Shown: positions 3,684 to 18,955 of the stretch, in pieces
Layout of the letters: each line of letters begins with the position of its first letter
Position numbering within the stretch: position 1 is the first letter of the stretch
NCBI GenBank assembly: GCA_020723665.1
Contig: DYIL01000007.1
Coordinates: 1 to 64,000 of the forward strand
DNA length: 64,000 nt
Direction of reading: 5' to 3'
Source: Methyloversatilis universalis
Lineage (GTDB): Bacteria > Pseudomonadota > Gammaproteobacteria > Methylococcales > Methylococcaceae
Position numbers and translations under genes: made by a program
Notes under the pieces: model-generated
Told to the model about the DNA's origin: nothing
Databases searched by the model: none
Seen by the model: only the letters and a program-made list of their open reading frames with translations

Positions 3684-3701
3684 AGGAGGTACGACATCAT
3701 G
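3684..3701 (+). promoter_or_regulatory. Ribosome binding site deciding the fdnG start
   Basis: AGGAGG at 3684-3689 lies 9 bases before the ATG at 3699. This favours that start over an in-frame ATG at 3669 and places the twin-arginine motif at residues 5-6. Confidence 0.8.
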
Positions 3702-6700
3702 CAAGTCACTCGGCGCCAGTTCTTCAAGCTGAGTGCCGCAACGCTAGGAGGTTCCACGCTGACGGCCTTGGGTTTTTCGCCCAGGGAAGCGCTGGCGGAA
3801 GTGCGCACATTCAAGCTGACGCGCACCACGGAAACCCGCAATACCTGCCCGTATTGTTCCGTAGCCTGCGGCCTCATCCTGTACAGCCTCGGCGACAAGG
3901 CGAAGAATGCCAAGTCCGAAATCATCCACATCGAGGGTGATCCGGATCATCCGGTAAGCCGCGGCAGCCTGTGCCCCAAAGGCGCCGGCCTGCTCGGCTT
4001 CGTCCACAGCGAGACCCGCGTCACTTTTCCGGAATACCGCGCGCCGGGCACCCGGAAATGGAAACGGGTCACCTGGGATTTCGCGCTGGAACGCATCGCG
4101 AAACTCATGAAGGAAGACCGCGACCGCCATTTCGTCGCCAAGAATGACAAGGGGCAGACGGTCAACCGCTGGCCGACGATCGGGTTTCTGGCCGCCTCCG
4201 CGTCCTCGAACGAAACCGGTTATCTCACCCACAAGGTTCTCCGCAGTTTAGGCATCGTAGCGCTCGACAACCAGGCACGCGTCTGACACGCACCGACGGT
4301 GGCAAGTCTTGCTCCGACATTCGGTCGCGGCGCCATGACGAATACCTGGATGGACATCAAGAATGCGAACGTCATTCTGGTGATGGGCGGCAACGCCGCC
4401 GAAGCGCATCCGGTGGGCTTCAAATGGGTGGTCGAGGCGAAGGCCCATAACAAGGCCAAGCTCATCGTCGTCGATCCGCGGTTCAACCGCACGGCCTCGG
4501 TGGCCGACTTGTACGCGCCGATCCGGGTAGGAACCGATATCGCGTTCCTCAATGGCGTGATCCATTATTTGTTTGAGCACGACGCCATCCACCACGAGTA
4601 TGTCAAGGCGTATACCAACGCCGGTTTCGTCGTGCGCGAGGACTTCGGCTTCAACGATGGACTTTTCACCGGCTACGACGAGAAGACCCATAGCTACGAC
4701 AAGAGCACCTGGCAGTATGAGCTGGACGAACAGGGCTTCGCCAAGGTCGACGAGACCTTGCAGCACCCCCGTTGCGTCCTGAATCTGCTGAAGCAGCATG
4801 TCTCCCGCTATACCGTGGACACGGTTTGCGACATCACCGGCACGCCCAAGGATCTGTACCTGAAGGTGTGCGAGACGGTCGCCTCGACCGCCGCGCCGAA
4901 CCGGACCCTGACCAGCCTCTATGCGCTCGGCTGGACCCAGCACAGCATCGGGTCGCAGAACATCCGGACCCTGGCGATTTTGCAGCTGCTGCTCGGCAAC
5001 ATCGGCATGCCGGGCGGAGGAGTCAACGCGCTGCGTGGCCACTCCAACATCCAGGGCCTGACCGATTTGGGGCTGTTGTCGGATCAGTTGCCGGGCTATC
5101 TGAACCTCGCCCGCGACCACGAAACGACCCGCGCCGCCTATCTGGAGAAGCGCACGCCCAAGCCGCTTAGGCCCGGACAGGTCAACTTCTGGTCCAACTA
5201 TCCGAAATTCCATACCAGTCTGATGAAGGCCTGGTACGGCCAGGCGGCGACACCGGACAACGACTTCGGCTACGACTGGCTGCCCAAAGTCGATCAGCTT
5301 TACGACGGTCTGCGCGTCTTCGATCTGATGGCGCAGGGCAGGATGACGGGCTATTTCTGCCAGGGCTTCAATCCGCTGGCGTCCTTCCCGAACAAAGGCA
5401 AGATCGTTTCGGCCCTGTCCCGCCTGAAATTCCTGGTCGTCATGGACCCCTTGGCCACGGAAACCTCGGAATTCTGGCAAAACCACGGCGAGTACAACGA
5501 CGTGAAGCCGGAAGAAATCCAGACCGAGGTGTTCCGCCTGCCGACGACCTGTTTCGCCGAGGAGGAAGGGTCACTGGTCAACAGCTCGCGCTGGCTGCAA
5601 TGGCACTGGAAAGGCGCCGAGCCGCCGGGCCAATGCCGCACCGACATCGATATCATGGCCGAGCTGTTCCTGAAAATACGCGAGCTTTACCGGCAGGAGG
5701 GCGGCGCGTTCCCCGATCCGATCCTGAATCTGCACTGGCCTTATCGGATTCCCGAAGCGCCCTCGGCCGAGGAACTGGCGAAGGAATACAACGGCTATGC
5801 ACTAGCCGATATTCCCGATTCGAAAGACCCGGGCACGGTATTGGTCAAGGCCGGTCAGCAGCTGTCGAGCTTTACCCAGCTTCGGGATGATGGCAGCACC
5901 GCTTGCGGTACCTGGATCTTCTGCGGTTCCTGGACCGAGGAAGGCAACCAGATGGCGCGGCGGGACCCGACCGACCCGACCGGGCTGGGGATCGCACCGC
6001 GATGGGCTTGGGCCTGGCCTCTGAACCGGCGGATCCTGTACAACCGCGCCTCCTGCGATCCCTCCGGCAAGCCCTGGGATGAGAGGCGCAAGCTGATCGA
6101 GTGGGACGGGTCCAAATGGACCGGGCTGGACGTGCCGGATTTCAAGGTCGATGCCGGACCCAATAGCGGCGTGTCGCCGTTCATCATGACCGACGAGGGC
6201 GTCGCCCGCCTGTTCGCGCGGCATCTTATGGCCGAAGGACCGTTCCCCGAGCATTACGAGCCTTTCGAAAACCCGCTGGGCACCAACCCGCTGCACGCCA
6301 AGGTGATCAGCAATCCGGCGGCGCGCGTGTTCGCGAACGACAAGGCCGTGCTCGGCGACCACGAGGCGTTTCCCTATGTGGCGACCACCTATCGTCTGAC
6401 CGAGCATTTCCATTTCTGGACCAAGCATTCCAAGATCAATGCCCCGCTCCAGCCGGAGCAGTTCGTGGAGATCGGCGAGGAATTGGCCCGCGAGCTCGGC
6501 ATCGCCAACGGCGAAAAGGTCACGGTCCGTTCCAAGCGCGGCGCAATCAAAGCGGTGGCGCTGGTGACCAAGCGTATCAAGGCGCTGAAGGTGGCCGGAA
6601 AAACCGTGCATCAGATCGGCATCCCGATCCATTGGGGCTTTACCGGGGCGACCCGGAAAGGCTATATCGCCAACACCCTGACGCCTTTCCTGGGCGACGC

Positions 6701-6896
6701 CAATACCCAGACCCCGGAGTTCAAGGCTTTTCTGGTCAACGTGGAGAAGGACTTGAGCGAACTCATGCCGCATACCCACAAGCCGGGCGAGACCCACGAA
6801 GAGCGCAGGCGTCCCGAGGTCCTTCTGGAGGACGACGAACCCGCCAGGCAGGTCTCCTGGCTGGTGCGCATCCTCAAGGGCCGGACGGAGGTTTAG
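3699..6896 (+). CDS. fdnG: Selenocysteine-containing formate dehydrogenase, alpha subunit (UGA read as Sec)
   Basis: Large catalytic subunit of a membrane-associated, periplasm-facing FDH-N/FDH-O type formate dehydrogenase, which oxidises formate to CO2 at a bis-MGD molybdenum or tungsten centre. A Tat signal (RRQFFK, residues 5-10) starts the protein. Cysteines 50, 53, 57 and 92 bind the [4Fe-4S] cluster. The frame is interrupted by TGA at 4284-4286, after DNQARV; the codons after it continue the family sequence (HAPTVASLAPTFGRGAMTN). This residue, number 196, is the known Sec site of E. coli FdnG. A SECIS-like hairpin follows immediately. With read-through the product has 1065 residues, slightly longer than E. 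coli FdnG. Reading the TGA as a stop would split the gene into 3699-4286 and an artefactual second ORF. The beta subunit starts 3 bases after the stop. Confidence 0.96.
4284..4324 (+). promoter_or_regulatory. Sec UGA codon with bacterial SECIS hairpin
   Basis: The TGA at 4284-4286 is followed by a stem-loop. CCGA (4293-4296) pairs with TCGG (4321-4324), and the apical GCAAGUCUUGC carries the loop expected for SelB binding. The layout closely matches the E. coli fdnG element as I recall it. SelB and tRNA-Sec are encoded downstream in the same window. Confidence 0.9.
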
Positions 6897-6899
6897 ACA

Positions 6900-7772
6900 A
6901 TGGCATTGCAATCCCTGGATATCGTCCGTCGATCCGCCACCACGACGCCGAGTCCGCAGCAGCGGCAGACGACGGAGGTGGCCAAGCTCATCGACGTCAC
7001 CAAGTGCATCGGCTGCAAGGCTTGCCAATCGGCCTGTATGGAATGGAACGACCTGCGCGAGGAAGTCGGGATCAACGAGGGCTCCTACACCAACCCGCAC
7101 GATCTCACCGCCAACAGCTGGACGCTGATGCGCTTCGCCGAGACCGAGGAAAACGGCACGCTGGAATGGCTGATCCGCAAAGACGGTTGCATGCACTGCG
7201 CCGACCCCGGCTGCCTCAAGGCCTGTCCCTCACCGGGTGCGATCATCCAATACGCAAACGGCATCGTCGATTTTCACGAGGAAAACTGCATCGGCTGCGG
7301 CTATTGCATCGCCGGCTGCCCGTTCGATATTCCGCGCCTCTCCGAGAAGGACAGCAAGGTGTACAAATGCACCCTTTGTTCCGACCGGGTGGCGGTCGGC
7401 CTGGAACCCGCCTGCATCAAGGCCTGTCCGACCCAAGCCCTGGTATTCGGCAGCAAGGAAGACATGATCGAACATGCCAACGAACGCATCGCCGATCTGA
7501 AGGAACGCGGCTTCGAGAACGCAGGACTCTACGATCCTCCCGGCGTCGGCGGCACGCACGTCATGTACGTTCTGCACCATGCCGACAAGCCCGAACTCTA
7601 CAACGATCTGCCCAAGGACCCGGTCATCAGCCCCACGGTCGGGCTGTGGAAAGGCATCTTCAAGCCCCTCGCCACCGCCGCGATATTTTTCACCGCCCTG
7701 GCCGGGTTCTTCCATTACGTCACCGTCGGCCCTAACGAAACCGAAGAGGAAGACGAGGAAAAGAAGCCATGA
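6900..7772 (+). CDS. fdnH: Formate dehydrogenase, iron-sulfur beta subunit
   Basis: Electron-transfer subunit carrying four [4Fe-4S] clusters between the alpha subunit and the membrane cytochrome. The 290-residue protein has ferredoxin-type cysteine motifs: [35 protein letters not shown] and CTLCSDR...ACIKAC. A single transmembrane anchor lies near the C-terminus ([15 protein letters not shown]), as in FdnH/FdoH. Length is normal. It lies 3 bases after the alpha subunit and overlaps the gamma subunit start by 4 bases (ATGA), so translation is probably coupled. Confidence 0.95.
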
Positions 7773-8410
7773 CCACCCGGCACAGCCCGAGATCGATTGA
7801 CCGCTACAGCCCTTCGGAACGGCTCAACCACTGGATTACGGCGATCACCTTCCTCATGCTCGCCTTTTCCGGGCTGGCGCTGTTCCATCCGTCGATGTTC
7901 TGGTTCACGCAAGTTTTTGGCGGTCCCACCTGGACGCGCATCCTGCATCCCTACATCGGCGTCGTGATGTTCGTCTCCTTTTCCTTGCTGGCCTTCAAGT
8001 TTTGGCGTCACAACTTCTTGACTCGCAACGACATAGTCTGGCTTCGCCGCATCGGCGACGTCGTGCGGAACCGCGAGGAAGGGCTGCCGGAAGTGGACCG
8101 CTACAACGCCGGTCAGAAACTGCTGTTCTGGACCATGATCGGGACGATATCGCTTTTGCTGCTGACCGGCATCGTCATCTGGCGGCCCTGGTTCGCTCAT
8201 TACTTCCCCATCGACATCGTCCGCCTGGCATTGCTGCTGCATGCGGTCTGCGCCTTCGTCATCATTTGCGGCATCATCGTTCACATCTATGCGGCCATAT
8301 GGATCAAGGGAACCCTCGGCGCGATGGTGCGCGGCACCGTCACCCGCGCCTGGGCGCGCAAGCATCATCCCGGATGGTACAAGCAGGTGACCGAGGGAGA
8401 AAAACATTGA
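7769..8410 (+). CDS. fdnI: Formate dehydrogenase, cytochrome b556 gamma subunit
   Basis: Membrane subunit that passes electrons from the beta subunit to quinone through two b-type hemes. The 213-residue protein has four hydrophobic segments, beginning near [40 protein letters not shown] and [15 protein letters not shown]. Histidines within or beside them could be heme ligands. Length matches FdnI/FdoI (about 210-217). It overlaps the beta subunit by 4 bases and abuts fdhE. Confidence 0.93.
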
Positions 8411-9576: not shown

Positions 9577-10130
9577 CTAGTTCTTGAACGTTTTCATCGC
9601 TGATCTACGCTCGAATAAGGAAGCCGCCTTCGGCGGCAGCTGAATTTGAAGCGGGTCTCGCCCCGCCGGCGAGTCACGCTGCAAACTCCATCCCTGGAGT
9701 TTGCCCTTCGGGCCAGCGTTCCGCTGTCCAAACTGACAACGTCCTTCCCTGGACGTTGCCCTTCGGGCGAACGTTGTTCGTCCCATTCCGCTTCCGGCGG
9801 AATGGTCGCTCCCGGCGAATTGGTCTTTTGCTTGCCCAAAAGACAAGTTTGTCAGGAACAAACTTGGACGCGCGAAGCGCGCCCGAAGGGTTCGCACCAG
9901 GGAGGGTGCGAATCAGCGAAACCGAAGAAAAGGGCCCCCGGATGGCGCGCTGATCCTGCGCGTCGCGGGCTGGAGCCGGGGGCGACAGAAGGCACGTCCC
10001 TAGGCTTCTGTCGCCGCACGCGATCCGTCGCGTGCCCCTTCGGGCGGTTCCGGCTCAAGCCGGCGATGCTCGGGCGCGCCATACGGGACGATTCAGCAAT
10101 GCCGTACAGCTGATCAGAAAATGCTCTAAA
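9577..10130 (+). repeat. TIR-type repeat element, copy A
   Basis: This stretch matches 19137-19818 in reverse complement. Shared blocks include the CGTTTTCATC...CTGAT start, GAAGCGGGTCTCGCCCCG, GACAACGTCC, CATTCCGCTTCCGGCGG, and the ATGCTCGGGCGCGCCATACGG and GCAATGCCGTAC blocks near the right end. Its ends, CTAG...CGTTTTC and GAAAATGCTCTA, are degraded versions of the terminal repeats of copy B. The interior is full of short palindromes around CCCTTCGGGC and carries no credible gene. It lies just before selA. Confidence 0.75.
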
Positions 10131-10197
10131 ACCCCACGAGCCGCTCCAATCTAGCTAAAATTCGGCCGATTTATCCGATAGCCCGCAAAAAAACGCC

Positions 10198-11598
10198 ATG
10201 CCTCATCCCGACAACCCGTACGCCCGCCTACCTTCCGTGGACAGCCTATTGGCACACCCCGATATGGCCGGTTTGAAGGAGCGTTACGGGCATACCGCCG
10301 TCGTCGCCGCCGTGCGGGCCGAACTGGCTGAGCGGCGCGAGGCGCTGAAAGCGCAAGCCGATTCGGCGCCGGACACGGAGCGCCTGGCGGCCGATTGTCG
10401 GAGACGCCTGGAAGCCGAGTTCGCGCCGTCGTTGCGTCCCGTGTTCAATCTCACCGGCACGGTGCTGCACACCAACCTGGGACGGGCGCTGCTGGCGGAA
10501 TCGGCGGCCGAGGCCGTGCTGGCGGTGCTGACCCGGCCCAGCAGTCTGGAATACGACCTCGCGGGCGCCCGCCGGGGCGATCGCGACGACCATATCGACG
10601 GCCTGATTCGCCAACTGACCGGGGCCGAGGCCGCGACCGTGGTCAACAACAACGCCGCGGCGGTCTTTCTTCTGCTGAACACCCTCGCGATGCGCAAAGA
10701 AGTGATCGTATCCCGCGGCGAACTGATCGAGATCGGTGGCGCCTTCCGCATTCCCGACATCATGTCGCGGGCCGGGGCGAAGCTGCGCGAAGTGGGCACC
10801 ACCAATCGCACTCACCTGAAGGACTACGTCGAAGCCCTGAATCCGCGCACGGCCCTGATCATGAAAGTGCATCGCAGCAATTACGCCATCGAAGGCTTCA
10901 CCGCCACGGTGCCGGAGGAACAGTTGGCGGAACTCGCCCACAAAAACGGTCTGCCCTTTGTCGAAGACCTGGGCAGCGGCACACTGATCGATCTCAGCGT
11001 CCATGGCTTGCCCAAGGAGCCGACCCCGCAGCAAGCCCTGGCCAAAGGCACCGATCTGGTGTGCTTCAGCGGCGATAAACTGCTGGGTGGACCGCAAGCC
11101 GGGATACTGGTCGGCCGCAAGGACCTGATCGGCAAGATCAAGCGCAATCCGCTCAAACGCGTCCTGCGGGTGGACAAGATGACCCTCGCCGCGCTGGAAG
11201 CCACGCTCAGACTTTATCGGAGCCCGGAACTGTTGAGCCGGCGATTGCCGACGCTACGTCTGCTGACGCGGACGGAGGCAGAGATACGGACGCTGGCGCA
11301 GCGTATCCTGCCGAAGGCGCAGGCCGCCCTGAACGCCCATGCCGAGGTGACCGTCGAATCCTGCCGTAGCCAGATCGGCAGCGGTTCCCTGCCCGCGGAC
11401 CGCCTGCCCAGCGCCTGCCTCGTTCTCAAGCCGAAGGGCAGGGGTGGCGGACGCGCATTGGACCATCTGGCCCAAGCGTTCCGCGAACTGCCCATTCCCG
11501 TCATCGGCCGGCTGGAGGATGGCGCCCTGCGCTTCGATCTTCGCTGTCTGGAGGACGAAGCGGGGTTTATCGATCAGCTAGGCTTGTTGAGGCTTTGA
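10198..11598 (+). CDS. selA: L-seryl-tRNA(Sec) selenium transferase SelA
   Basis: PLP enzyme that converts Ser-tRNA(Sec) to Sec-tRNA(Sec) with selenophosphate. The 466-residue protein shows the family N-terminus ([16 protein letters not shown]), the [17 protein letters not shown] segment and the PLP-lysine motif [12 protein letters not shown], with lysine 294 as the expected Schiff-base residue. Length agrees with the bacterial family. selB starts 1 base after its stop, so the pair is co-transcribed and probably translationally coupled. Confidence 0.96.
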
Positions 11599-11599
11599 G

Positions 11600-13504
11600 A
11601 TGATCATCGGCACCGCCGGCCACATCGACCACGGTAAGACCGCCTTGGTCAAGGCGCTCACCGGGGTAGACGCCGACCGCCTCGCGGAGGAGAAGGCACG
11701 CGGCATGACCATCGACCTGGGCTATGCCTACACGCCGCTGGCAAACGGGGAAATCCTCGGCTTCGTGGATATGCCGGGCCACGAAAAATTCGTCCACAAC
11801 ATGCTGGCGGGAGCGACCGGGATCGACTTCGCTCTGTTGGTCGTGGCGGCGGACGACGGTCCCATGCCGCAAACCCTGGAACATTTGCAAATCCTCGACC
11901 TGCTGGCCATCCGGAGCGGCGCTGTCGCCCTGACCAAGACTGATCTCGTCGACCCGGACCGCATCGCCCCTGTGGCCAGGGAAATCCGCGCCCTGCTCGG
12001 CGGCACCGGACTCGAAGGCTGTCCCCTGTTTCCGGTCTCCGCCGTCACGGGCGCCGGCGTGGCCGAACTGTGCGCCCATCTGGAAACCGCCGCCGCGAGT
12101 CTCGGCGCAAGAACCATCCGTGGTGGTTTTCGGCTCGCAGTCGACCGCTGTTTCACCGTGGCAGGCGCGGGCACGGTGGTCACCGGCACGGTCTTCTCCG
12201 GCCGGGTCGCCGTGGGCGATAGGCTGCTGCTTTCGCCCTCGGGCCGTCCGGTCCGGGTGCGCGGCATTCATGCTCAGAACCGTGCGGCCGAAGTGGGCCT
12301 AGTCGGGCAGCGCTGCGCGCTCAATCTGGCCGATGTGGAAAAACGCGAGGTGCAGCGGGGCGATTGGGTGCTGGCGCCGGAACTCCATCTGCCGACGACC
12401 CGCCTCGACGTAAGGCTCACGCTGCTGGCCAGCGAAACCAGGCCGTTGAAGCATTGGACACCGGTGCATGTCCATCTCGGCGCGTTCCACGCCACCGCGC
12501 GGGTCGCCTTGCTGCAGGATGCGCCTCTGGAGCCGGGCGGCAGCGCGCTCGCCCAATTGGTTCTGGACAAGCCCACCTGCGCCGTCAACCGCGACCGCTG
12601 CATCCTCCGTGACGCTTCCGCGCGGCGCACGCTCGCCGGCGGACGGGTCCTGGATGCGCAGCCGCCCACGCGCGGCCGACGCACCGCACAGCGTCTGGAT
12701 ATCTTATCGGCCTGGGAGCAAGCCGAACCACAGGCGATGTTGCGGACGATGCTCGCGGTTTCGCCCAACGGGGTGGACCTACAGGAATTCGCCGCCAACG
12801 CCAACCTGACATCGATTGAACTAGACGATCTCTGTCGAAGCCTGGAACTGCGGCGTGTTGCAGGAACGAAGCCGATGGCCTTCGCGCCGGAACACTGGAG
12901 CCGACTCAAACGGGCCGTAATCGAAACGCTCGGGAAAGAGCACGAAGACGTGCCCGACTCTCTTGGCCTCAACGCCGAGCAATTGCGCCTTCGGACCGCC
13001 CCGCGACTGGAACGGACGGTTTTCGCACTGCTCTTGGCCGAACTGCTGGAAGATGGGCTGTGCGCGCGGGACGGTTCCTGGTGGCACCTGCCAGGCCACG
13101 AAATCACTCTTTCCGAAGCGGACGAACAGCTATGGCAGCAGATTTCGCCCCTGCTCCTGGAACGTCCTTTTCAGCCGCCACGAGTGCGGGATATCGCCCG
13201 CGCCGAATCCCTGGACGAAACGGTGGTCCGAAAGCTTCTGATGCAGGCGGCGCGCCTGGGCCGGGTCTACCGTGTCGCCCATGATCACTATTTCGACCGA
13301 ACAGCCGTCGCCGCCCTGGCCGATATCGTCCGCGGCCTCGCCCGCGAAACCCCCGACGGCGCGATAAAGGCCGCCGCGTTCCGCGACCGCATCGGCACCG
13401 GCCGCAAGTTGGCCATCCACATCCTGGAATACTTCGACCGCGTCGGCCTGACCCGCCGCCTGCGCGACACCCACCTGCTACGCAACGAGGGGTTGCAATT
13501 TTGA
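11600..13504 (+). CDS. selB: Selenocysteine-specific elongation factor SelB
   Basis: GTPase that binds Sec-tRNA(Sec) and the SECIS hairpin and delivers Sec at UGA. The 634-residue protein begins with the G1 motif [16 protein letters not shown], followed by [14 protein letters not shown] and [13 protein letters not shown] (G3), and a TKTD motif (G4). EF-Tu-like domains 2 and 3 follow, with a long C-terminal part (from about residue 370) expected to hold the SECIS-binding winged helices. Length is near the E. coli 614. Confidence 0.96.
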
Positions 13505-13576: not shown

Positions 13577-13751
13577 TTAAGGAAGCTCTGATTAAGTTTC
13601 CAGTGGGAAAAGCGAACAGTGCAACTGTTTGATCTAAAAGGCCCTCACCCAACCCTCGCCGCCAATGGCATGGAAAGGGAGAACGGGTGTAAACCATCCG
13701 CCCGGTTTAAATTGTAAACCATGCGCGGCTTGCACATCAGAGCTTCCTTAA
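13577..13751. mobile_element. 175-bp MITE-like element with perfect 16-bp terminal inverted repeats
   Basis: TTAAGGAAGCTCTGAT at 13577-13592 is repeated as its exact reverse complement at 13736-13751. The interior has no gene. The part next to the right end (about 13640-13735) recurs in reverse complement near 44804-44901. A solo end-like sequence (TTAATCAGAGCTTAA) occurs near 22205. This supports a small non-autonomous transposable element family in this genome. Its right end supplies the stop codon of the adjacent transposase remnant. Confidence 0.7.
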
Positions 13752-14090
13752 AGGCAAACACCCGTCACAGTTTGCCTGTCGGGCTCCAGATGATTGCTCG
13801 GCTTTTCGACCAACAAATCAGGTCTTTCAGCGTACCATTTTTTCATCGCCTCCCTGGGTGGGATGTGTCCAAGGGCTTTCTGAGGCAGATGGTGGTTGTA
13901 CAGCCACACATAACGCTCCAGGATGGTTTTCAGGTTTTTGGCGCTGTCGTGGCGGTGTGTGGCCAAGACCTCCGCGATGCGGCCGTTGAAACGCTCTACC
14001 ACACCATTGGTCTTGGGCGTGTGCGGTCTGGTCAGACGGCGTTCGATGCCCAGAGCGGCACAGGGCCGTGGATGCGGTGATGATTGGGAC
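13748..14090 (-). pseudogene. IS481-family transposase, C-terminal remnant
   Basis: On the minus strand the frame encodes the last part of an IS481-type integrase-fold transposase: CAALGIERRLTRPHTPKTNG, VVERFNGRIAEVLATHR, YVWLYNHHLPQKALGH and PPREAMKKWYAERP. The glutamate in VERFNG would be the last residue of the DDE triad. The N-terminal helix-turn-helix and the first two catalytic aspartates are missing, and upstream sequence (14090-14160) no longer aligns in frame, so this is a dead fragment. It lies between selB and selC and is cut at its 3' end by the MITE-like element. Confidence 0.75.
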
Positions 14091-14339
14091 CGGATCAATC
14101 GCGAACGATGCGGTTCGTTCCTCACCGCATCCCACAAAGCTGCTATTCAAGGTTGGCGAACACCATCGAAGCCGCCATGGAATTCACGCAATGCCTAAAA
14201 GAAGCCGTGCGCATGCTACAACCGTTCAGGCCCAAAGCGTCAAAACGCATTCAAGCCGGCATCCACTCGTTTCCCGCCACGCAGGACGGCCCGGCGGGCG
14301 CGATCGACGAACGCTTTCGGTAAAATGCATGCCTTTGCC

Positions 14340-14435
14340 GGAAGAGCATCGTCCCCGGTGGGGCGGCCGGTCTTCAAAACCGGTTGAGGCCGTGAGACGG
14401 TCTCGGGCGGGTTCGACTCCCGTTCTCTTCCGCCA
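14340..14435 (+). tRNA. selC: tRNA-Sec (anticodon TCA)
   Basis: Suppressor tRNA that inserts selenocysteine at UGA. The 96-nt gene has the acceptor pair GGAAGAG/CTCTTCC, anticodon loop CTTCAAA with TCA at 14374-14376, the long variable arm typical of Sec tRNAs (after GGTTGAGGCCG), a TTCGACT T-loop and an encoded 3' GCCA. It aligns along its whole length with E. coli selC as I recall it. The eighth acceptor position looks like a C-T mismatch. It lies downstream of selAB and upstream of the unknown three-gene set and selD. Confidence 0.95.
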
Positions 14436-14710: not shown

Positions 14711-15826
14711 ATGAAGACATTCGAATCCCTGGAAACCATCGTCGAAACGATAGTCGAGCCCGCCGCCGAGGCGGTGGATCGTGAAGCCTTATTCCCGCGC
14801 CCCGCGATCGAAGCCTTGGGCAATGCCGGACTGCTCGGGTTGATCAGCGCGCCGGAAGTCGGCGGTCTCGGCGGGACGGTCGCCGACGCCAGCCGTGTCG
14901 TGTCGCGCCTGGCACAGGCTTGCGGTTCGACCGCTATGGTCGTCACCATGCACTACTGCGCCACGGCGGTCATCGAGAAATACGGGAACGAAGCCTTGCG
15001 ACGCGAGATTGCCGCGGGCCGCCATCTTTCCACCCTGGCATTTTCCGAACCCGGCTCGCGCAGCCATTTTTGGGCCCCGTTGAGCGAGGCGCAGGCCGAT
15101 GCCGACGATGTTCTGTTGGCCGGCGCCAAAACCATGGTCACCTCGGCGGCCGAGGCCGATTCCTACGTGTGGTCTTCCCGCCCGGTTGCCGCAGAAGGTG
15201 CCAGCACGATCTGGCTGGTACCGTCCGACAGTTCCGGGTTGGCACGGACCAAGCCGTTCGACGGGTTGGGGCTGCGCGGCAATGCGTCCGCACCGATGAC
15301 GGCGGATAAAGTCAGGGTTTCGTCTTCCATGCGGCTCGGCGGCGACGGCGAGGGCTTCGCCATCATGATGGATACCGTCCTGCCCGTTTTCTCGATGCTG
15401 TGCGCGTCCTGTTCGCTCGGGCTCATGGAATCGGCCCTGAATCGCGCCTGCGTCCATGTCGGGTGTTGCCGCCTGGATCATCTCGGTTCCAGCCTCGCGG
15501 AATTGCCGACTCTACGCGCCTATCTGGCACGGGCCCGCATCCGCGTCGACATGGTCAGAACGCTGCTGGACGATACCATCGAGGCTTTGGCCGGAGAGCG
15601 ACAGGATGCCCAGTTGCGGGTGCTCGAGATTAAGGCGGCCGCGGCGGAGGCGGCGCTGGAAGTGACCGATGTCGCCATGCGCGTTTGCGGCGGCGCGGCG
15701 TTCCGCAAGGATCTCGCCGTCGAGCGTGTGTTTCGCGATGCCCGCGCGGCTTCGGCGATGGCGCCGACATCCGACGTGCTGTTCGACTTCATCGGCAAGA
15801 CCGTGTGCGACCTGCCGCTGTTCTGA
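14711..15826 (+). CDS. Acyl-CoA-dehydrogenase-fold flavoprotein lacking the usual catalytic Glu
   Basis: A 371-residue protein with the acyl-CoA dehydrogenase layout: helical N-terminus (GLLGLISAPEVGGLGG), central beta domain (TLAFSEPGSRSH, GLGLRGNAS) and C-terminal helices (MRVCGGAAFRKDLAVERVFRDAR). The FAD-binding pattern is retained. At the end, where short-chain acyl-CoA dehydrogenases carry the YEGTSE catalytic glutamate, this protein reads MAPTSDVLFDFIG. That is more like flavin-dependent monooxygenases of the DszC/group D type, so desaturation of an acyl-CoA is doubtful. It is the first gene of a set reading towards selD, with 10 bases to the next gene. The substrate is unknown. Confidence 0.75.
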   Translation: MKTFESLETIVETIVEPAAEAVDREALFPRPAIEALGNAGLLGLISAPEVGGLGGTVADASRVVSRLAQACGSTAMVVTMHYCATAVIEKYGNEALRREIAAGRHLSTLAFSEPGSRSHFWAPLSEAQADADDVLLAGAKTMVTSAAEADSYVWSSRPVAAEGASTIWLVPSDSSGLARTKPFDGLGLRGNASAPMTADKVRVSSSMRLGGDGEGFAIMMDTVLPVFSMLCASCSLGLMESALNRACVHVGCCRLDHLGSSLAELPTLRAYLARARIRVDMVRTLLDDTIEALAGERQDAQLRVLEIKAAAAEAALEVTDVAMRVCGGAAFRKDLAVERVFRDARAASAMAPTSDVLFDFIGKTVCDLPLF

Positions 15827-15836
15827 GGGAGATTCT

Positions 15837-16691
15837 ATGCCTGAGACTTTGCTCATGGGCGCGGTCGCTTACGCGCCCAAGGTGGTGACGATCTGGGAGG
15901 GGTTCAAAGCGTATTTCGCCGAAAGGGGGCTAGCCTTCGATTATGTCCTTTATTCCAACTACGAACGCCAGGTCGAGGCGCAATTCGAGGGCGCCATCCA
16001 TGTGGCGTGGAATTCGCCGTTGGCCTGGGTGCGGGCCGAGCGCATGGCCAGGGCGCGCGGCGTTGCCGTTTCGGCCGTGGCGATGCGCGACACCGATCGA
16101 GACTTGAGCTCGCTCATCGTGGTTCGGGCCGGTGCCGGCATCGAATCGTTCGCGGATCTCAGAGGCAGGACCGTCGGTTTCGGCGCCGTCGACTCGCCCC
16201 AGGCGACGCTGATTCCTCTTGAACACCTGAGCCGTCACGGCTTGCAGGCCGGCCGGGATTTCACCGCCCGCCGCTTTGACCAGCTCGGCGGCAAACACGG
16301 CGATCATATCGGTGGGGAGCGGGATGCCGCCCTGGCGCTGACGCGCGGCGAAATCGATGCCGCCTGCATGATCGATAGCAATCACCTCGCGTTCACTACC
16401 GAGGGCATCCTTCCGGCCGGCGGCACCCGTATCCTGGCGCAGACCGACGCCTACGATCATTGCAATTTCACCGTCAGTCCCGGCGCCCCGACGGAACTGG
16501 TCGACCGCTTCGTAGAGCTATTGCTGGCCATGTCCTGGGATGACCCGGCGGCGCGCCCCTTGATGGAACTGGAAGGGCTCAAGCAATGGCTGCCGGGACG
16601 CACCACGGGTTACGCCTTGCTCGAGCGAGCGGTAGATGAACAGGGTTTTTACGACGCCGATGGACGCATCCTCGCCGCCGACTATCGATAG
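15837..16691 (+). CDS. PhnD-like periplasmic-binding-fold protein without signal peptide
   Basis: A 284-residue protein of the phosphate/phosphonate (PhnD) or THI5-like binding-protein fold. Visible features are an N-terminal beta strand (LLMGAVAYAPKVV), HVAWNSPLAWVRAERMA, FADLRGRTVGFGAVDSPQATL and LTRGEIDAACMIDSNHL. The protein starts directly with the first strand: no signal peptide or lipobox, and no ABC permease or ATPase gene nearby. It is therefore probably cytoplasmic and not a transporter component; related folds serve as enzymes or scaffold proteins in cofactor pathways (THI5, MqnA/D). It lies 10 bases after the dehydrogenase-like gene and overlaps the next start by 56 bases. Confidence 0.7.
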   Translation: MPETLLMGAVAYAPKVVTIWEGFKAYFAERGLAFDYVLYSNYERQVEAQFEGAIHVAWNSPLAWVRAERMARARGVAVSAVAMRDTDRDLSSLIVVRAGAGIESFADLRGRTVGFGAVDSPQATLIPLEHLSRHGLQAGRDFTARRFDQLGGKHGDHIGGERDAALALTRGEIDAACMIDSNHLAFTTEGILPAGGTRILAQTDAYDHCNFTVSPGAPTELVDRFVELLLAMSWDDPAARPLMELEGLKQWLPGRTTGYALLERAVDEQGFYDADGRILAADYR

Positions 16692-17868
16692 TGAAGCGCT
16701 GGGTTTCGACCGGGGCGCGCATCTGCTCGTGAAACACGCCCTGGCCGGTGTTGCGGTCGGCTCGACCCTCCGCGTCGTTTCCAAGGCGCCCGGGTTTCGT
16801 GCCCACGTTGTTGCCTGGTGCCGAAGCCAAGGCCATGGTGTGAGTTTCGACGAGGCGGGGCGCGCGCTGATCGTGCGCGGCGGCTATCAGACCGGACGTT
16901 GGCGTGGCGCGGAGCGTTCCGGCCGGTCCGATCCCCGCTCGCCGGACGCTGTGGCCGAACAGGCCAAAGCAAGCTGGGGCTTGGCCGCGCGCGGTTCCAC
17001 GGTGGAGGCCGGCGGGCCGGAATGGGATTTTGCGCTGGACCGCAAGCACGAGGTCTGGGCGGACGAGGCGGTGGATCTGTACCGGCAGGCGCTTGCCGCG
17101 CAGTGGGATCCGGAAACCGCGGCGGATTGGAACGCGCCGTTCGAGTTGCCGGACGAAGTCGAGGATGCGGTCGTGCAAGTCATGACCTATCTGATCGAGA
17201 ACGAAAACGCCGCGCTACTGGTGCCCGCCCGCTTCCTCGGCCGGATTCATCCGCATTACCGCGAGATTATGCAGTTGCTGGCGATACAGGTGGCGGACGA
17301 AGCGCGCCATGTAGATGTGTTCACGCGGCGCGCCCGGCTGAAAGGACGGGAACCGGCCTTGTCTACCGTGGGCGGCCAGCTTTCACTCAAGACGCTGGTC
17401 GACGAACCCGATTTTTCAGTCGCCGCTTTTCTACTTTCTGTGCTCGGCGAAGGAACGTTCGTCAACCTGCTCAATTTCCTCCATGTCCATGCGCCCGATC
17501 CGGTGACGCGGCGGATCGCACGGCTTGCCGCACGCGACGAAGCGCGTCACGTCGCTTTCGGCATGGCGCATCTGTCACGCCGTCTGAACAGCGAGCCCGA
17601 GTTGCGTGCGCGCTTGGCCAACGCTATCGAGTTGCGTCACGATACCCTGTCCGCAGGGGGCGCCGGCCTGAACGAAGAGGTATTCGATGCCCTGGTACTG
17701 CTGGCGGCGGGGGAGTGGACTCCCGCCGCGATCGCGGCCGGGTTCGAAAGGGTGCAGGCGTTGCAATCCGAGATGGCCGAGGGTCGGCGCCTGCGGCTTT
17801 GTAGGCTCGGCTTCGACGAGCCCGAAGCCGAAAGGTTGGCGAGTCTGCACACGCGGAATTTCATGTAG
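16636..17868 (+). CDS. Fusion of Cys-less TusA-like domain and diiron ferritin-like domain
   Basis: A 410-residue protein of unknown function. Residues about 17-80 resemble a TusA/SirA/YedF fold (HLLVKHALAGVAVGSTLRVVSK, VVAWCRSQGH), but the usual CPxP motif is replaced by sequence without cysteine (FDRGAHLL). Residues about 140-400 form a helical ferritin-like domain with a complete diiron ligand pattern: E188 or E190, E222xxH225, E272, and E302xxH305, the two ExxH motifs both reading DEARH. I use the ATG at 16636, which overlaps the upstream gene; an ATG at 16660 is also possible. It ends 40 bases before selD. A diiron oxidase or oxygenase acting on a sulfur or selenium compound is one possibility, but there is no direct evidence. 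Confidence 0.65.
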   Translation: MNRVFTTPMDASSPPTIDSEALGFDRGAHLLVKHALAGVAVGSTLRVVSKAPGFRAHVVAWCRSQGHGVSFDEAGRALIVRGGYQTGRWRGAERSGRSDPRSPDAVAEQAKASWGLAARGSTVEAGGPEWDFALDRKHEVWADEAVDLYRQALAAQWDPETAADWNAPFELPDEVEDAVVQVMTYLIENENAALLVPARFLGRIHPHYREIMQLLAIQVADEARHVDVFTRRARLKGREPALSTVGGQLSLKTLVDEPDFSVAAFLLSVLGEGTFVNLLNFLHVHAPDPVTRRIARLAARDEARHVAFGMAHLSRRLNSEPELRARLANAIELRHDTLSAGGAGLNEEVFDALVLLAAGEWTPAAIAAGFERVQALQSEMAEGRRLRLCRLGFDEPEAERLASLHTRNFM

Positions 17869-17908
17869 GACGGCGCTTGGTGTTTCTTCACGCTCCTCGG
17901 AGTGATCC

Positions 17909-18955
17909 ATGACCGAAATTCGATTGACCACCCTTTCCCACGGCGGAGGCTGCGGCTGCAAGATCGCGCCTGCCGTACTCTCGCAGATGCTGGCGGAACT
18001 GCCCCTGCCGAACCGGTTTCCCGACCTCTTGGTCGGCACCGACAGCAGCGACGACGCGGCGGTCTACCGGCTCAACGAGCAGCAGGCCATCGTCGCGACC
18101 ACCGACTTCTTCATGCCGATCGTCGACGACCCGCATGATTTCGGCCGCATCGCCGCAACCAATGCGCTGTCGGATGTTTATGCCATGGGTGGCAAGCCGA
18201 TCATGGCCCTGGCCGTGGTCGGCATGCCGGTGGATAAACTTCCGGTGTCGACCGTCCGCCGGATCCTAGCCGGAGGCGCCTCGGTGTGCGAAGCGGCAGG
18301 CATCCCTTTGGCCGGCGGCCATTCCATCGATGCGCCCGAGCCTATCTACGGCCTGGTCGCGCTCGGGTTGGTCCACCCGGACAAGGTGAAGCGCAACGAC
18401 CGGGCGCAGCCGGGGGACCTGCTGATTCTCGGCAAACCACTGGGCATCGGCATTTTGAGCGCAGCCTTGAAAAAGGGCGAATTGGACGAGGCGGGCTATG
18501 CCCGGATGATCGAGCACACCACCCGCCTGAATGGCGTGGGCACGACGCTGGGGGAAATGGACGGCGTTCATGCCATGACCGATGTCACCGGTTTCGGTCT
18601 CCTGGGACATCTGCTCGAAATCTGCCGGGGATCGAACCTGGGCGCCGATATCGCGTTTCGTGACATTCCTCTCATCGACGTGGCCGCGGAGTTGGCGAGC
18701 CGAGGCTATGCCACCGGCGCCGCGAATCGGAACTGGGACAGTTACGGGTCATCGGTCGAGATCGGGGATGGCTTGTCCGAATGGCAACGCAAGCTGCTCT
18801 GCGATCCCCAGACCAGCGGCGGTTTGTTGGTCGCCTGCGAGCCGGACAGCGCCGCCGAAGTCTTGGCCTTGTTCCGCCAGCACGGCTTCGACCAGGCTCG
18901 GCAGATCGGGCGAATGCGGGAAGGGGATTGTATCGTTCGAGTCACGACTGAGTGA
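17909..18955 (+). CDS. selD: Selenide, water dikinase SelD
   Basis: Makes selenophosphate from selenide and ATP, the selenium donor for SelA. The 348-residue protein begins with LTTLSHGGGCGCKIAP, carrying the catalytic Cys and Lys of the CGCK motif (Cys, not Sec, in this organism). AIR-synthase-like motifs follow: GTDSSDDAAVY, TTDFFMPIVDDP, TNALSDVYAMGGKP, GGHSID and DVTGFGLLGHL. Length matches E. coli SelD. It is the last of four closely spaced genes downstream of selC; its neighbours raise the question whether selenophosphate has a second use here. Confidence 0.96.
   Translation: MTEIRLTTLSHGGGCGCKIAPAVLSQMLAELPLPNRFPDLLVGTDSSDDAAVYRLNEQQAIVATTDFFMPIVDDPHDFGRIAATNALSDVYAMGGKPIMALAVVGMPVDKLPVSTVRRILAGGASVCEAAGIPLAGGHSIDAPEPIYGLVALGLVHPDKVKRNDRAQPGDLLILGKPLGIGILSAALKKGELDEAGYARMIEHTTRLNGVGTTLGEMDGVHAMTDVTGFGLLGHLLEICRGSNLGADIAFRDIPLIDVAAELASRGYATGAANRNWDSYGSSVEIGDGLSEWQRKLLCDPQTSGGLLVACEPDSAAEVLALFRQHGFDQARQIGRMREGDCIVRVTTE

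Follow-up and report, generated by a model that had tools for sequence, protein, structure and literature searches.

Which function is served by three genes packed between selC and selD, and is it tied to selenium at all? This question is raised by positions 14,711 to 18,955 of a 64,000-nucleotide stretch of Methyloversatilis universalis DNA (NCBI GenBank assembly GCA_020723665.1, contig DYIL01000007.1, positions 1 to 64,000; hereafter the window), where an acyl-CoA-dehydrogenase-fold protein (A), a PhnD/PtxB-fold protein (B) and a protein joining a TusA-like domain to a diiron oxygenase-fold domain (C) are encoded just upstream of the selenophosphate synthase gene selD. A first-pass annotation, made from the sequence alone, had regarded these genes as a candidate selenium-linked system, with the insertion of selD beside an unrelated operon as the alternative. 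Across genomes, A, B and C form a conserved unit, which is very probably linked to selenium considering how regularly its carriers possess selD. As for its role, a conserved O2-dependent selenium-supply module acting upstream of SelD in aerobic bacteria fits best, a reading to which we attach a probability of roughly one half.

The A-B-C unit and its company of selenium genes

The following features of the window are needed first:

14340..14435, plus strand: selC, gene of the selenocysteine (Sec) tRNA, tRNA-Sec, anticodon tca
14711..15826, plus strand: gene A, acyl-CoA-dehydrogenase-fold protein of 371 amino acids (open reading frame, Pfam)
15837..16691, plus strand: gene B, PhnD/PtxB-fold protein of 284 amino acids without signal peptide (Pfam, predicted structure)
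16660..17868, plus strand: gene C, TusA-like N-terminal domain and diiron oxygenase-fold domain, 402 amino acids
17909..18955, plus strand: selD, selenophosphate synthase, Cys form (HGGGCGCK), identified by profile match

The tight, co-oriented packing of A, B and C between selC and selD, as first annotated, is borne out by the coordinates of the open reading frames and of the tRNA gene. Regarding the spacing, the gaps of 10 bases between A and B and of 40 bases between C and selD hold, whereas the overlap of 56 bases given for B and C is obtained only from an ATG at 16636 (410 amino acids) and falls to 32 bases from the conserved and more likely start of C, ATG 16660 (MDASSPP...). For B, the start shared by homologues is ATG 15837, the mechanical list of open reading frames opening the frame at 15669. 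The selD profile score is 441 bits for a cut-off of 125. Between 14300 and 19300, no promoter-like site was found and a single weak terminator-like site of 5 pairs lies at 17844-17857, within the final codons of C and before selD, where shuffled versions of the same sequence hold 4.5 such sites on average; the possibility of a terminator isolating selD, raised in the first-pass annotation, thus comes down to a site no more than chance gives.

The alignment of C was scanned against 84,980 genomes, one per species, and the best 80 of 157 relatives were kept and fetched with flanks of at most 9 kb, many contigs being shorter; counts over 80 loci refer to these. A homologue of A is present in 74 of the 80 loci and a homologue of B in 78, and the gene order among the 74 loci holding all three is A-B-C in 70, B-A-C in three and C-A-B in one, with B and C overlapping in 58 of the 70 loci ordered A-B-C. 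A is missing from six loci, in four of which C sits at a contig edge (L034, L073, L099 and L101), the other two, L057 and L092, lacking A despite sufficient upstream DNA. Since the same order recurs in the genomes G002, G028 and G031 and in 70 of the 74 wider loci, the arrangement is not due to chance. After length filters, the alignments comprised, besides the window, 73 homologues of A, 77 of B and 79 of C, and two alignments picked for spread and then hand-thinned or supplemented (A5 and A6) comprised 45 and 39. A tree of C was built from 48 loci plus the window, the fragment from L099 being removed by the length filter; the hosts of these 48 loci belong to Pseudomonadota, Myxococcota, Planctomycetota, Acidobacteriota and Actinomycetota, with one Rokuibacteriota bin and four rows without group. 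Of the 38 genomes of the window's family, 5 possess C, which is intact in G000, G002, G028 and G031, always as A-B-C-selD; in the fifth, G003 (L012:8693-10180), A and C are pseudogenes with large internal deletions, the B gene between them and the selD gene after them being intact. Full-length C was found in 2 of 398 genomes drawn from the window's phylum and in no plasmid, as only 1 of 72,556 plasmid records matched, with 48% cover and 26% identity.

The evidence carrying the selenium link is the co-occurrence with selD, which was called over its family cut-off; L050 is left out of all selD counts, the background is the 398-genome draw, taken from the window's phylum only, and the counts of selA, selU and SenB cover 49 of the 79 carriers. 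Spread over five phyla, 75 of 79 carrier genomes possess selD (46 of 49 plus 29 of 30), against 129 of 398 in the background, which upholds the proposal of a selenium-linked system and runs counter to the refuting case named with it, of homologues grouped mainly in the absence of selD. The binomial P of about 6e-32 ignores relatedness and the draw covers one phylum, so that it is the range of five phyla, and not P, which carries the argument. Within the window's family, selD is present in 14 of 38 genomes, namely in 5/5 carriers (one of them decayed) and in 9/33 others (Fisher P 0.004). As selA was found in only 35 of the 49 carriers and selU in 34, the set goes with selD itself rather than with any single use of selenophosphate, and assigning it to Sec or formate dehydrogenase alone was rejected on the same selA count. 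Among the 46 selD-positive carriers, selA stands alone in 12 and selU alone in 11, the two occur together in 22, and G746 lacks both; selU is absent from all five carriers of the window's family. The C tree implies a minimum of 6 changes for selA and of 8 for selU. Of 54 genomes searched for SenB (TIGR04348), 5 exceeded the cut-off and three more gave scores below it.

Some carriers differ in SelD itself. In 13 of them, a TGA codon lies within the SelD frame, which probably encodes a selenoprotein SelD (G741, G747, G748, G750, G752, G753, G757, G760, G763, G764, G788, G789 and G790), and in the Nitrosomonas carriers selD is an open frame of 725-746 amino acids, probably a fused form.

The neighbourhood search proposed in the first-pass annotation found the set to recur widely, also in genomes without selA (14 of 49 carriers), and a selenium gene lies within the fetched DNA of 18 of the 80 loci. 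The neighbours include selA (13 loci), selB (11), selD (10), a TIGR04553-type protein (5), selU (3) and senA together with senB (3), where chance would give about 0.3 loci with selD, for 1.3 Mb of locus DNA and genome sizes of about 5 Mb. Outside the window's family, the set seldom adjoins selD directly. The set stands in Sec clusters in the window, L048, L058, L060, L061, L064, L071 and others. In three Hydrogenophaga loci (L069, L074 and L079), it is part of a senB-A-B-C-selD row with senA and egtD adjoining and a putative selenate transporter next to it, the latter being profile-confirmed for L069. In Ramlibacter (L099), C, selD and selU are consecutive, with a C-selD gap of about 550 bases, and the single locus L071 holds selA-A-B-C-selB followed by selD (opposite strand), the transporter genes and selU. 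When the neighbours in 85 loci, window included, were clustered from crude gene calls and the 45 largest clusters considered, the only genes found in at least 7 loci, besides A-B-C and their frame shadows, were selenium and formate dehydrogenase genes. Four of these clusters (4, 7, 8 and 10), which we take to be of formate dehydrogenase type, are represented in 7-14 loci each.

The TIGR04553-type binding protein near the set in 5 of the 80 loci is profile-confirmed in three of the five; the corresponding 'selenate' ATP-binding cassette (ABC) transporter genes lie at L058:11658-15030, L069:1-3341 and L071:14246-17857 as well as in L074 and L079. In L058, a sulfide-quinone-reductase-like flavoprotein (9887-11611; 87.7 bits for a cut-off of 525) is encoded between C and the transporter, and members of the same cluster occur in L084 and L090.

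Further upstream, the window holds:

3699..6896, plus strand: putative formate dehydrogenase alpha subunit, a selenoprotein with in-frame TGA at 4284-4286 (start codon chosen by the analyst)
6900..8410, plus strand: two genes which we take to encode the formate dehydrogenase iron-sulfur and cytochrome subunits, of families that recur in other loci
10198..11598, plus strand: selA, identified by profile match
11600..13504, plus strand: selB, identified by profile match

Hence selA and selB precede selC on the same strand. The TGA codon of the alpha subunit gene stands in the context ARV-U-HAPTVASLAP, and the host of the window, given this codon, probably makes at least one selenoprotein. Directly ahead of selC, an open reading frame on the minus strand (13748-14137), presumably integrase/transposase-like, is perhaps a mobile-element remnant.

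Features predicted for the three proteins

Protein A matches the Pfam families PF02771, PF02770 and PF00441 at 57.9, 44.6 and 65.3 bits, all over cut-off, in agreement with the name it had first been given. In acyl-CoA dehydrogenases, the catalytic Glu is found in a C-terminal EGT motif. At the expected position, placed by eye, the window's protein has APT, and the position of the catalytic Glu is occupied by Ala in 65, Gly in 8 and Ser in 1 of 74 rows, followed by Pro-Thr in 74/74. Judged by these alignments, A is an acyl-CoA-dehydrogenase fold devoid of the usual catalytic Glu.

Protein B likewise keeps its PhnD-like name, with a match to PF12974 at 114.9 bits; it scores 53.7 bits against TIGR04553. 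Its model, with a predicted local distance difference test (pLDDT) of 94.9, finds structural matches in PtxB (5o2k_E: Z 25.0, root-mean-square deviation (rmsd) 3.2, 252 residues aligned), HtxB and the arsenate-binding ArrX (6x9g: Z 23.9, rmsd 3.5, 249 aligned). Three motifs are conserved, namely DSPQA, HGDHIGGE and DHC, with H154, D156 and H157 in 77/78 rows and D207-H208-C209 in 78/78. Only 5-13 residues stand ahead of the first motif in 77/78 rows, L059 with its 55 residues having probably a misplaced start; a periplasmic transporter part was rejected, as this N-terminal length leaves no room for a signal peptide. Two further readings of B were weighed. It might bind selenophosphate, phosphonates being ligands of the PhnD fold, although the STSG motif of TIGR04553 proteins is not kept; or it might be an enzyme of the Thi5 or MqnA/MqnD kind, the fold match to Thi5 being weak (rank 48).

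For protein C, the diiron part of the designation as a TusA-like/diiron fusion receives support from predicted structure, both Pfam matches being below cut-off (TusA 23.1 bits for 28.6; AurF 21.3 bits for 29.6). The model of 402 residues (pLDDT 94.1) matches diiron oxygenases over residues 161-400 and, over residues 144-400, aldehyde-deformylating oxygenase (4rc5_A: Z 20.8, rmsd 2.3, 213 aligned), VlmB (8wvr_A: Z 20.2, rmsd 3.6, 251 aligned) and R2lox. Positions E188/E190, E222, H225, E272, E302 and H305 are invariant in 80/80 rows, window included, and on the basis of the alignment C is assigned the four-Glu, two-His ligand pattern of a ferritin-like diiron oxygenase, with E188 or E190 as predicted first-helix ligand. 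The N-oxygenase AurF has a third His ligand, and the corresponding position (298) is Ala, Thr, Val or Ser in C, which differs from AurF in this respect and by the sub-cut-off score. In the TusA sulfurtransferase, the active site is a CPxP motif. In the TusA-like part of C, this motif, mapped by eye over the 80 rows, is absent, with no Cys and with Gly in 79 rows and Ala in one at the first Pro position, so that C was rejected as a working TusA sulfurtransferase. The TusA-like label stands on the sub-cut-off Pfam match, the fold searches barely covering the first 140 residues. Of note, a distant AurF-like diiron family (L027:9508-10623) occurs in 10 of the 398 genomes; selD was present in 5 of 5 genomes at first and, when looked for directly, in 7 of the 10, numbers too small for more than a suggestion.

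Proposed role and competing explanations

A supply module upstream of SelD fits best considering the pair of predicted O2 enzymes, the oxyanion-type binding fold and the company of selD under three uses of selenophosphate. As regards chemistry, that is selenium binding, the use of O2 and flavin and the compound concerned, we infer the following scheme. The cytosolic B, a relative of the TIGR04553 'selenate' proteins, would bind a small selenium compound, with selenite, seleninates and selenonates as candidates; A would serve as an oxidase or oxygenase working with flavin; C would activate O2 and oxidise or cleave the selenium compound, e.g. at a C-Se bond, its TusA-like domain possibly serving as a docking or binding part; and the selenium released would, after reduction, be passed to SelD.

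Several observations weigh against this supply reading. The main one, directed against a fixed operon, is that 62 of the 80 loci have no such selenium genes within at most 9 kb. Moreover, 4 of the 79 carriers lack selD, namely G730, G737, G751 and G765 (loci L053, L063, L086 and L034), all four being metagenome bins; since G730 has selA and G751 has selU, a missed selD is likely in both, and G765 was tested for selD only. G737, a Delftia bin, lacks selD, selA and selU alike, all three of which are present in Delftia tsuruhatensis (L067/G740), its neighbour on the C tree. Conversely, most selD-positive genomes do without the set, as selD is found in 129 and full-length C in 2 of the 398 background genomes, and in G003 selA and selD persist beside decayed copies of A and C; the set is thus not essential to selenium use. 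At the level of the proteins, B has DSPQA where TIGR04553 proteins have STSG, and its ligand may therefore not be an oxyanion. The role is deduced from genomes and predicted folds, and the carriers are presumed to be aerobes in view of the predicted O2 chemistry and of some of the genera concerned. Lastly, G746 has selD and the set without selA, selU or SenB, which a product made downstream of SelD would explain better.

Such a downstream role, in which selenophosphate would be the starting point of a new selenium-containing metabolite or cofactor with the flavin and diiron enzymes as tailoring enzymes, is possible but distinctly less probable than supply. The presence of selD in 75 of 79 carriers, the position of the set directly upstream of selD in the window's family, the case of G746, and oxygenase-type enzymes with a VlmB-like fold typical of natural-product tailoring are all in line with it. 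An independent trait might however stand alone more often, whereas 45 of the 46 selD-positive carriers also have selA or selU. Besides, the neighbours recurring in at least 7 loci are confined, within the clusters and crude gene calls described above, to selenium and formate dehydrogenase genes, and the set joins other selenium operons, as expected of a supply module. The boldest form of this reading, a further SelD-dependent trait in five phyla which turns selenophosphate or selenide, by flavin and diiron oxygenation, into a new metabolite or cofactor, an addition to the selenometabolome often joined to Sec, selenouridine or selenoneine operons, is rather unlikely.

Detoxification of reactive selenium by-products (excess selenide, methylselenol or selenite), rather than the feeding of SelD, is improbable. 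The set accompanies every selD-dependent trait tested, is dispensable as judged by the decay in G003 and includes a predicted oxidising enzyme pair that would suit the task, with the sulfide-quinone-reductase-like flavoprotein following C in L058 as a further point in favour. Selenite toxicity, however, needs no SelD, and carriers without selD would then be expected, of which there are only 4 among 79.

That the set is an accessory of the Sec formate dehydrogenase, travelling with that island, is very unlikely: genes of this type are recurrent neighbours (clusters 4, 7, 8 and 10) and start 11 kb upstream in the window, but selA is missing from 14 of 49 carriers, in which no Sec formate dehydrogenase is thus to be expected, and the sen-embedded loci L069, L074 and L079 belong to none of the four clusters. 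A chance vicinity of selD to an unrelated operon, for which the mere 10 of 80 loci with selD near the set might speak, is the least probable explanation and was rejected on the genome-wide co-occurrence (75/79 vs 129/398) and on the repeated placement of the set with different sel and sen genes.

Related systems and significance

The nearest named families to A and B are those of the mycobacterial Rv1679 (FadE16) and Rv1680 (NF049984 and NF049985), which present the same two folds, adjacent by locus number, as A-B. The scores are nonetheless far below the curated cut-offs, with 399.7 bits for 600 in A and 247.4 bits for 400 in B, so that neither is a member, and the mycobacterial pair is not known to have either C or a link to selenium. 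No function for Rv1679 or Rv1680 was found in the titles or abstract openings of the literature searched by name. Among 274 genomes of the class, only two gave a match to the model of the Rv1680 family, the window's own and G167, whose protein has a leader sequence and whose locus holds sen-like genes. The binding protein of the putative selenate ABC transporter (TIGR04553) is of PhnD type like B but differs, in the three proteins compared, by an N-terminal leader, permease and ATPase partners, STSG instead of DSPQA and the absence of the HGDHIGGER insertion found in B. The diiron domain of C shares fold and ligand pattern with aldehyde-deformylating oxygenase, the azoxy synthase VlmB and R2lox, from which it differs by a low identity (about 15-23%) and by other substrates, the likeness concerning this domain only.

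Among SelD-linked accessories, the nearest precedent is YedE/YedF, also named FdhT/FdhU, for which selenium handling for formate dehydrogenase is proposed in the pertinent passages of PMC2432076 and PMC5322559; there, YedF is a TusA/SirA-like domain fused to a second domain and genetically linked to selD. As far as those passages go, CPxP is present in YedF, the second domain of which is DsrE-like and bears CGxC, whereas C has no CPxP in 80/80 rows and carries a diiron domain; nor is a YedE-like transporter part of the A-B-C set. The enzymes of the set are of other kinds than YedE/YedF. The SenABC selenoneine pathway (PMC9814287) is clustered with selD as well, and the Hydrogenophaga sets lie between senB and selD, but its enzymes are others; the distinction from SenABC, made in the first-pass annotation, agrees with the lack of any SenB match in G000, even though the set is found inside a sen operon in the three Hydrogenophaga loci. 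Type 1 mlp clusters, as presented in parts of PMC10418091, are widespread and proposed for methyl-sulfur/methyl-selenide metabolism with a link to selenium use; they involve corrinoid methyltransferases and anoxic environments, in contrast to the predicted use of O2 by A-B-C. In the relevant portions of five works (PMC2432076, PMC5322559, PMC5029168, PMC9312934 and PMC13188914), the SelD-linked candidates named are YedE, YedF, DUF3343, LysR_Se, HP1/HP2, an isochorismatase-like protein, an ABC ATPase and a cysteine desulfurase-like protein, and the terms 'acyl-CoA dehydrogenase' and 'phosphonate' are absent from their main text. No description of A-B-C was met in the literature searched, the original selenoneine work, which may have noted the neighbourhood, being outside the search.

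Specific high-affinity selenium transport is not known in prokaryotes, according to the sections of PMC13188914 and PMC9312934 on the subject, and the putative PhnD-type selenium transporter near A-B-C merits a separate study. The labels 'acyl-CoA dehydrogenase', 'phosphonate-binding protein' and 'ferritin-like protein' may conceal a selenium function in many genomes. If the set makes a product, it would offer a new route to a selenium-containing natural product. Beyond this possibility, the A-B-C set, accompanying selD in carriers from five phyla and under all three selenophosphate uses tested, attaches named genes to the question of how bacterial SelD is supplied with selenium.

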